Under the pieces are notes generated by a model that was not told where the DNA came from, searched no databases, and saw nothing but the letters and a program-made list of their open reading frames with translations. Position numbers and translations under genes: made by a program. A stretch of DNA of 39,972 nucleotides from an uncultured Prochlorococcus sp. (lineage in GTDB: Bacteria > Cyanobacteriota > Cyanobacteriia > PCC-6307 > Cyanobiaceae): positions 1 to 39,972 of the forward strand of contig CACGER010000010.1 of the NCBI GenBank assembly GCA_902572075.1. Reading direction: 5' to 3'. Below, piece after piece: positions 14,155-14,979 of this stretch (position 1 is its first letter; each line of letters starts with the position of its first letter).

Positions 14155-14553
14155 TCAATCTATTTTTAATTCTAAATATTCAAAAAGTGTTGATAACCTC
14201 TGAGGATCTTTTAAAAATAGCCAGCCAACAAGGGTTTCAAAACCAGTTGCTCTTGAATATATGGTAGGGTCTGAAGACCTTGGATATCTCTTTGTTTTAT
14301 TTCTAGCACGCCGAATTAGATCCATTTCATTTGAATTTAATAAATGTTCAATTTGACTTAATGATTTTGACTGAGATTTTGCTTTAACTTCGTTTACTAC
14401 CGATAAATGGAGATCTTTAGATTTTAAAGGAAAATGAACATGCTTTAGCCGCTGGTGAAGCTCCCATACAGAATCCCCAAGCCAAGCAAGTTGAATAACA
14501 CCTATTTCCTCGGGTGATCCATAAGGAACCAAGTTTTGAATCCAATAATTCAA
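14155..14553 (-). CDS. mrnC: Mini-ribonuclease 3 (MrnC)
   Basis: A 132-residue RNase III catalytic-domain protein lacking a double-stranded-RNA-binding domain. In Bacillus, Mini-III matures 23S rRNA. Key elements are LAWLGDSVWELHQR (the RNase III signature with the catalytic Asp) and RATGFETLVGWLFL (with the second acidic residue). The start codon is TTG at 14553-14551. It overlaps the upstream STAS gene stop in the four bases TTGA, an unusual coupling junction. rlmB follows four bases after its stop, which fits a shared role in 23S rRNA maturation. Confidence 0.9.
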   Translation of the reverse strand: MNYWIQNLVPYGSPEEIGVIQLAWLGDSVWELHQRLKHVHFPLKSKDLHLSVVNEVKAKSQSKSLSQIEHLLNSNEMDLIRRARNKTKRYPRSSDPTIYSRATGFETLVGWLFLKDPQRLSTLFEYLELKID

Positions 14554-14915
14554 TTTTTCAAATAATTTAATGCATCTTCAAGGCTTGACTTCAAATTAAG
14601 AAAATCTCCTAAACGAACAAGCTTAATTGTTTGGGCTACTCTCGAATTGCCAACGACAGAGAAACCAAGCTTCGCCTTTTTGCATTCTTTAGCAGTCTGA
14701 ACAAGAGCTCCAAGACCCGAGGAATCTAAAAAATCTATTTTTGTAAGATCAATAACGAATGGAAGCTCATTTTTTATTAAATTATTAGTAACAAAAGTCT
14801 TAAATTGTTTTTCTGAAAAAGCATCAAGTTGGCCTTTAAAAGTAAAAACAATAATGTTTGTTTTTACCTCAAGGTTTCCTCTTAAAGAAACCGTTAACTT
14901 CTGGAAATCTTCTAT
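14550..14915 (-). CDS. STAS-domain anti-sigma-factor-antagonist-like protein with non-canonical start
   Basis: An open frame of about 121 codons with a clear STAS fold: VSLRGNLEV, VFTFKGQLDAF, LPFVIDLTKIDFLDSSGLGAL, then AKECKKAKLGFSVVGNS and a C-terminal LEDALNYL helix. The DSSG motif carries the Ser phosphorylated in SpoIIAA/RsbV proteins. No ATG, GTG or TTG precedes the domain. A stop (TAG, 14919-14921) is followed at once by ATC (14918-14916) and ATA (14915-14913), and a strong GGAGGG sits at 14929-14924 with suitable spacing. Initiation is therefore most likely at ATA or ATC. I use ATA 14915, and 14918 is equally possible. The stop overlaps the mrnC start (TTGA). Role: probable partner-switching regulator; partners are not in the window. 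Confidence 0.85.
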   Translation of the reverse strand: MEDFQKLTVSLRGNLEVKTNIIVFTFKGQLDAFSEKQFKTFVTNNLIKNELPFVIDLTKIDFLDSSGLGALVQTAKECKKAKLGFSVVGNSRVAQTIKLVRLGDFLNLKSSLEDALNYLKN

Positions 14916-14923
14916 GATCTAAA

Positions 14924-14929
14924 CCCTCC
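14924..14929 (-). promoter_or_regulatory. Strong Shine-Dalgarno deciding the STAS gene start
   Basis: GGAGGG on the minus strand, complementary to the 16S rRNA tail. It is five to six bases from ATC (14918) and eight to nine from ATA (14915). Such a strong site is uncommon in this window, where most genes have weak A-rich leaders. It argues that translation really begins here despite the absence of a standard start codon. Confidence 0.75.
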
Positions 14930-14979
14930 AAAAAATTAATATATCAAATGTAATTATCAAATCAAAAGATAACAATATG

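Follow-up and report, generated by a model that had tools for sequence, protein, structure and literature searches.

A conserved AUH codon as the probable translation start of a cyanobacterial anti-sigma factor antagonist gene

The STAS locus and its surroundings

The window analyzed here, a stretch of 39,972 nucleotides from an uncultured Prochlorococcus sp., carries on its minus strand a gene for a STAS-domain protein, located between a carA-like gene and a gene for mini-RNase III. Read on that strand, the sequence runs from a GGAGGG hexamer (14929-14924) through an in-frame TAG (14921-14919), an ATC (14918-14916) and an ATA (14915-14913), after which the frame stays open to a TGA at 14552-14550. 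The STAS frame (14553-14918, minus strand) is without ATG, GTG or TTG, hereafter called standard starts, and a listing of ORFs opening on these three codons holds no STAS ORF of at least 60 amino acids at 14550-14929. A first-pass annotation of the window had described a complete STAS frame that lacks a standard start and is preceded by GGAGGG, and the sequence, the ORF listing and the match to PF01740 all confirm that description. The features of the locus are the following:

14550-14915, minus strand: STAS-domain anti-sigma factor antagonist gene, probable Ssr1600 ortholog, 121 codons plus stop (PF01740/TIGR00377, relatives, fit of residue numbers)
14924-14929, minus strand: Shine-Dalgarno (SD) element GGAGGG, from the sequence; 9 nt from GGAGG to ATA
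14919-14921, minus strand: in-frame stop TAG; of the 106 Prochlorococcus-type loci, 89 have a stop at codon -2 and 17 differ
14916-14918, minus strand: ATC at codon -1, an unlikely start on codon comparison among loci
14913-14915, minus strand: ATA, putative start codon; ATA in 106 of 106 Prochlorococcus-type loci
14938-14965, minus strand: possible sigma-70-like promoter, TTGATT, 16 nt, TATATT; the region holds three such sites, shuffled sequences 1.6 on average

Since the TAG lies just upstream, an N-terminal extension of the protein is excluded in the window. The sigma-70-like promoter, if used, might give a short leader, and the fold of the leader RNA was not clearly better than that of shuffled sequences (z = -1.43, with 12 of 200 shuffles as good). 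At the other end of the gene, at 14550-14553, the TGA runs into the TTG given as the start codon of the mini-RNase III ORF (14155-14553), an arrangement suggestive of translational coupling of the two. Both carA and mini-RNase III are matched within the STAS locus in 165/166 loci of the family, counted as presence in the neighbourhood irrespective of order or distance, and in 14/40 loci of other families, for which the flanks extend only about 1 kb.

That carA lies upstream and in the same direction raises the question of whether ribosomes enter the STAS frame from an upstream ORF by frameshifting or read-through. We regard this as scarcely credible: the ATA lies 64 nt beyond the end of the carA ORF, a stop occupies codon -2 in 89/106 Prochlorococcus-type loci, and the frame has a dedicated SD element that is conserved.

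As to chance occurrence, a scan for a 5-base SD, a spacing of 4-10 nt, an AUH codon (AUU, AUC or AUA) and an ORF of at least 80 codons with no standard start returned the STAS locus in the window, both as ATC and as ATA, together with one other match; over 80 related contigs, 135 of the 139 matches were at the STAS gene. The other match in the window (16668, plus strand) opens on ATT, runs for 207 codons antisense to a trpD-like ORF, and is probably a shadow ORF. A 5-base SD precedes only 1 of the 36 gene-like ORFs of the window, so that the strong SD is itself unusual there.

Identity of the STAS protein

The protein covers the full STAS domain (PF01740, 64.3 bits against a cut-off of 22.6, E = 9.8e-18) and exceeds the cut-off of the anti-sigma factor antagonist family TIGR00377 (65.1 against 53.45 bits), in agreement with the earlier assignment as a probable anti-sigma factor antagonist, which the residue comparison below also favours. 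It has the STAS family and the DSSG motif in common with anti-sigma F factor antagonists of the SpoIIAA type, but falls below the SpoIIAA equivalog cut-off (TIGR02886, 35.6 against 114.75 bits). In a 24-row alignment the motif residues D64, S65, S66 and G67 (numbered from the ATA) are invariant, and the phosphorylatable serine is thus kept. Among the relatives of known structure are 1th8 and 1sbo; a model predicted from 14 Prochlorococcus sequences was of poor quality (mean pLDDT 51.6). Of 13 genomes examined in the genus, 10 have one match to an RsbW-like kinase (PF13581), a possible counterpart of PmgA or of Slr1861, and the three without, which include that of the window itself, are at most 76% complete.

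In Synechocystis, Ssr1600 is reported to be an anti-SigC antagonist that is phosphorylated by Slr1861 and whose key residues are L24, G43 and S59/S60 (PMC12329169). Residues L24, G43, S59 and S60 come into register with our alignment if numbering begins at codon 7 (an offset of 6) in 29 of 40 loci; an offset of 7 fits 1/40 and none fits 10/40. This register, which uses the published numbers and not the Synechocystis 6803 sequence itself, supports orthology, and taken together the data indicate that the STAS gene is the Prochlorococcus ortholog of ssr1600. The control of SigC through Slr1861 has been reported for Synechocystis only (PMC12329169), and the kinase and sigma partners in Prochlorococcus are putative.

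The same register implies that the published Ssr1600 model is the same protein without its first six residues, with an N-terminus shorter than that of a protein begun at AUH. It thereby lends indirect support to the expectation that gene finders limited to standard starts would truncate the gene. The recombinant Ssr1600 that was reported to bind its kinase was apparently numbered from codon 7 (PMC12329169), and the first six residues may therefore be dispensable. Neither 'start codon' nor 'AUU' occurs in the main text of that paper.

Position and conservation of the probable start codon

Start codons were compared over 309 loci (80 + 110 + 40 + 60 + 19), which were reduced to 279 distinct ones by dropping one at a contig end (L430) and merging duplicates over 160 nt. 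These comprise 106 Prochlorococcus-type loci, a group set by a sequence rule and not by taxonomy, 60 loci from the family's remaining genera and 113 from other families (41 family codes, families being code groups); all counts are of sequences, not of independent events. The homologous codon was AUH in 278 of the 279 (ATA 134, ATT 112, ATC 32), and at no locus was it ATG, GTG or TTG. A further 38 ortholog loci outside the 309 were all AUH, and the six of them that were new and distinct, all ATA or ATC, bring the count to 284/285. The sole exception (L369, genome G579) has a CTG, which is preceded at 5 nt by GGAGG and at 30 nt by an in-frame ATG.

The codon at this position differs between groups. 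It is ATA in 106/106 Prochlorococcus-type loci, mixed in the other genera of the family (ATA 23, ATC 22, ATT 15), and mostly ATT in the other families (ATT 97, ATC 10, ATA 5, CTG 1); within the family it never departs from AUH. Before merging, the 110 loci from whole genomes of the family always had ATA, ATC or ATT; in one search, 70 of 178 matching genomes were used. Among the first 40 loci sampled in the class beyond the family, 35 had ATT, 4 ATC and 1 ATA, and 60 further loci had ATT in 49, ATC in 6, ATA in 4 and CTG in 1 (L369). Finally, 20 genomes picked for missing families or weak matches yielded 19 matches, of which 18 have ATT and one is truncated. In the best 80 of 170 related contigs, nearly all from Prochlorococcus, the start codon was ATA in 80/80 and the preceding codon ATC in 79 and ACC in 1, which makes a sequencing error at 14913-14918, a concern raised by the first-pass annotation, unlikely.

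The SD element is equally persistent, and the claim of a strong SD at this gene is upheld: an element of 4-5 bases lies within 18 nt upstream of the AUH in 279/279 loci. It is GGAGG or GGGGG in 106/106 Prochlorococcus-type loci, and a G-rich element of 4-5 bases in 60/60 other loci of the family and in 113/113 of other families. The spacing from a 5-base SD is 9 nt in 98/106 Prochlorococcus-type loci and in 31/42 other loci of the family, and 5 nt in 31/36 loci of other families. The 5' comparison proposed with the original observation thus shows AUH and SD kept, with no standard start at the position.

The first-pass annotation left initiation open between ATA and ATC; the comparison supports a non-AUG start and narrows it to the ATA, the ATC being replaced in relatives. 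Initiation in Prochlorococcus at the ATC (14916-14918), or at both codons, would agree with the presence of ATC in 102/106 loci and with its distance of 6 nt from GGAGG, nearer to the 5-nt spacing of 31/36 loci of other families. Nonetheless, we consider it improbable. Codon -1 among the 106 Prochlorococcus-type loci is ATC in 102, ACC in 3 and GTC in 1, with no synonymous change; it is CCC in 36/60 loci of other genera and varied in other families, and the ATA remains constant in 106. Moreover, it is the ATA, not the ATC, that aligns with the AUH of other families. The replacement of codon -1 elsewhere makes the ATA the likely start, and the constancy of its third base points the same way: a conserved internal isoleucine codon (I60) is ATA in 82/105 Prochlorococcus-type loci as against 106/106 for the start (Fisher p = 2.7e-8, a value inflated by relatedness).

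Standard starts are available at other positions in many loci, and TTG and GTG are frequent at codons 4-11 outside Prochlorococcus. A real start at such a downstream TTG or GTG, with the AUH lying in the leader, would be suggested by the standard start codons at codon 4 in 22/60 and codon 7 in 23/60 loci of other genera of the family, by those at codon 9 in 24/95 and codon 11 in 25/95 loci of other families, and by the fit of the Ssr1600 numbering to codon 7 in 29/40 loci. Several results speak against it, and we judge it very improbable. Codons 2-16 hold only 4 standard codons across the 106 Prochlorococcus-type loci, and codon 7 varies (TTA, CTA, CTG, CTT, CTC, TTG and others) like an ordinary leucine codon. 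Codons 2-6 are under coding constraint, with 35 synonymous and 6 non-synonymous differences among the 106 loci, and therefore look translated; and the SD is placed at start distance from the AUH.

A standard start is present neither upstream in frame nor in codons 2-13 in 91/106 Prochlorococcus-type, 6/58 other family and 38/112 other-family loci, and in-frame standard starts upstream, at scattered positions, occur in 12/106, 30/58 and 28/112, respectively. A normal start elsewhere in relatives, named at the outset as grounds against a non-AUG start, is not a conserved feature, yet a TTG or ATG does lie within 12 nt upstream of the AUH in 4/261 loci (L088 TTG, L091 TTG, L124 ATG, L380 TTG; positions -6, -6, -9 and -12). 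With such codons to hand, many single genomes outside Prochlorococcus would be ambiguous, and it is the comparison, not any one genome, that settles the start. From this comparison we infer that translation starts at the AUA at 14913-14915.

The AUH start might be merely historical, a weak start tolerated next to a strong SD and without any regulatory or dosage role. A strong SD can indeed compensate for a weak codon, but we find this explanation rather unlikely. A quick protein tree of 167 rows implies no fewer than 24 changes between the forms ATT, ATC and ATA, and none to a standard start; it represents the 106 Prochlorococcus-type loci by 12 rows, takes the other groups from a set of 261 loci, and was built on about 120 columns, so that its errors would inflate the number of changes. 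None of these third-base changes was to G, although ATA to ATG is a single transition and one that usually improves a start. In addition, ten stand-alone STAS paralogs, picked from 30 loci of these genomes, have an in-frame ATG upstream in 10/10.

Relatives of the ortholog were found in 242/242 genomes of the class (at least 90% complete, plus that of the window). One class genome that is 99% complete (G539) gave no ortholog at E = 1e-15, only a paralog-like match at 1.1e-12. A search of 194 genomes of the phylum at E = 1e-10 matched 92, of which 89 lie within the class and 3 belong to other classes and matched weakly (best 1.6e-12); 102/194 were without a match, and the 20 of these that were listed all lie outside the class. 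From this distribution the ortholog seems to be confined to the class.

Dosage of the antagonist and known parallels

The best explanation, to which we give a probability of roughly 0.8, is that the gene is an ssr1600 ortholog with an AUA start, in which a weak AUH codon and a strong SD would together keep a dose-critical antagonist scarce. The initiator tRNA would read AUA, or in relatives AUU or AUC, despite a third-base mismatch, the strong SD would hold the 30S subunit in place long enough for initiation, and IF3 would reject many of the AUH initiation complexes. The outcome would be a low, capped rate of synthesis at which the antagonist stays below its anti-sigma kinase, and in such a partner-switching circuit the sigma factor would remain held unless the antagonist were dephosphorylated. 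Variants with AUG, GUG or UUG, which would make the same protein and more of it, would be removed by selection. Reduced synthesis, selection for low dosage and the involvement of IF3 are what we infer from the conservation pattern and from precedents, and active variation of the rate by IF3 or growth state, including the sensitivity to initiation-factor levels suggested in the first-pass annotation, would be a further, less certain step.

Reports on Synechocystis are relevant to dosage: low or absent Ssr1600 rescues an rpoZ mutant in high CO2, overexpression of Ssr1600 slows growth in high CO2, and the ratio of anti-SigC to antagonist, that is, of kinase to antagonist, is described as critical (PMC12329169). 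A start that would cap synthesis, with a strong SD enabling initiation, fits such a ratio, and the data suggest that evolution keeps production of the antagonist deliberately low.

Feedback of the kind known from infC elsewhere gained no support. In cyanobacterial infC, at least one standard start codon lies within 75 nt upstream of the IF3_N domain in 50/50 loci, an ATG in 35; the sample is 50 of 59 genomes with a match, and a standard codon within 25 codons is often present by chance, so that each is a candidate and not a proof of use. In these 50 loci infC showed neither the AUH habit that it has elsewhere nor any need of such a start. Two IF3_N matches per genome, the second more divergent, occur in 16/60 genomes of the class; the second may be an IF3 paralog and might, if so, have a part in AUH initiation. 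A broader proposal, which we hold to be somewhat more probably wrong than right, is that the antagonist has been translated from AUH (once from CUG) since the last common ancestor of cyanobacteria, and that initiation fidelity, through IF3 or the state of the 30S subunit, would be a conserved input into global transcription by way of a sigma switch that responds to carbon and light, with infC apparently without such a codon.

Literature searches found no report of a non-AUG start for the Ssr1600 gene; an earlier mention may exist in a table of PMC8557916 or in Sato and Tajima 2012. Eight revised genes of Nostoc 7120 are reported to use ATA or ATT (PMC8557916), and the STAS gene may thus already be listed among them. 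Should the AUH start be confirmed, a gene other than infC would carry a non-standard start codon of very wide conservation, and this gene would encode a growth regulator that nearly all cyanobacteria possess; the usual annotation of its published form would then lack the first residues, and ATG expression constructs would bypass its natural dosage limit. Laboratory strains that are easy to handle would also allow the use of initiation fidelity as a regulatory input to be tested directly on the gene, which would be a clear failure case for gene finders as well.

With the initiation-limited non-AUG genes infC, sigR and ccpN the STAS gene shares a conserved start other than AUG, GUG or UUG and a strong SD, its start position being placed by comparison. 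Known infC starts are ATT in E. coli, ATC in Streptomyces and AUA in S. aureus (PMC5472188, PMC13009471); the AUH codon is thus held in common, but infC autoregulates. In Streptomyces, the GTC start of sigR is reported to keep SigR below RsrA through IF3, and among 34 Streptomyces the start is GTC in 32 and GTT in 2 (PMC5472188). Like the STAS gene, sigR encodes a component of a sigma circuit, has a conserved non-standard start with a strong SD, and is misannotated in genomes; it differs in being a sigma factor with GTC or GTT for which control by IF3 has been shown, whereas the STAS gene encodes an antagonist with AUH throughout the class. In S. aureus, conserved AUA and AUU starts with extended SDs are reported to give about 10% of AUG reporter expression, and the AUA start of ccpN up to 30% in rich medium; the non-canonical start of ccpN, a regulator of carbon metabolism, is kept between S. 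aureus and B. subtilis (PMC13009471). There, ccpN (AUA) and cvfC1 (AUU) likewise combine AUH with extended SDs under conservation; the proteins are unrelated to ours, and initiation has been mapped and measured. On this analysis, sigR and ccpN would be better parallels for the STAS gene than infC, the parallel drawn in the first-pass annotation.
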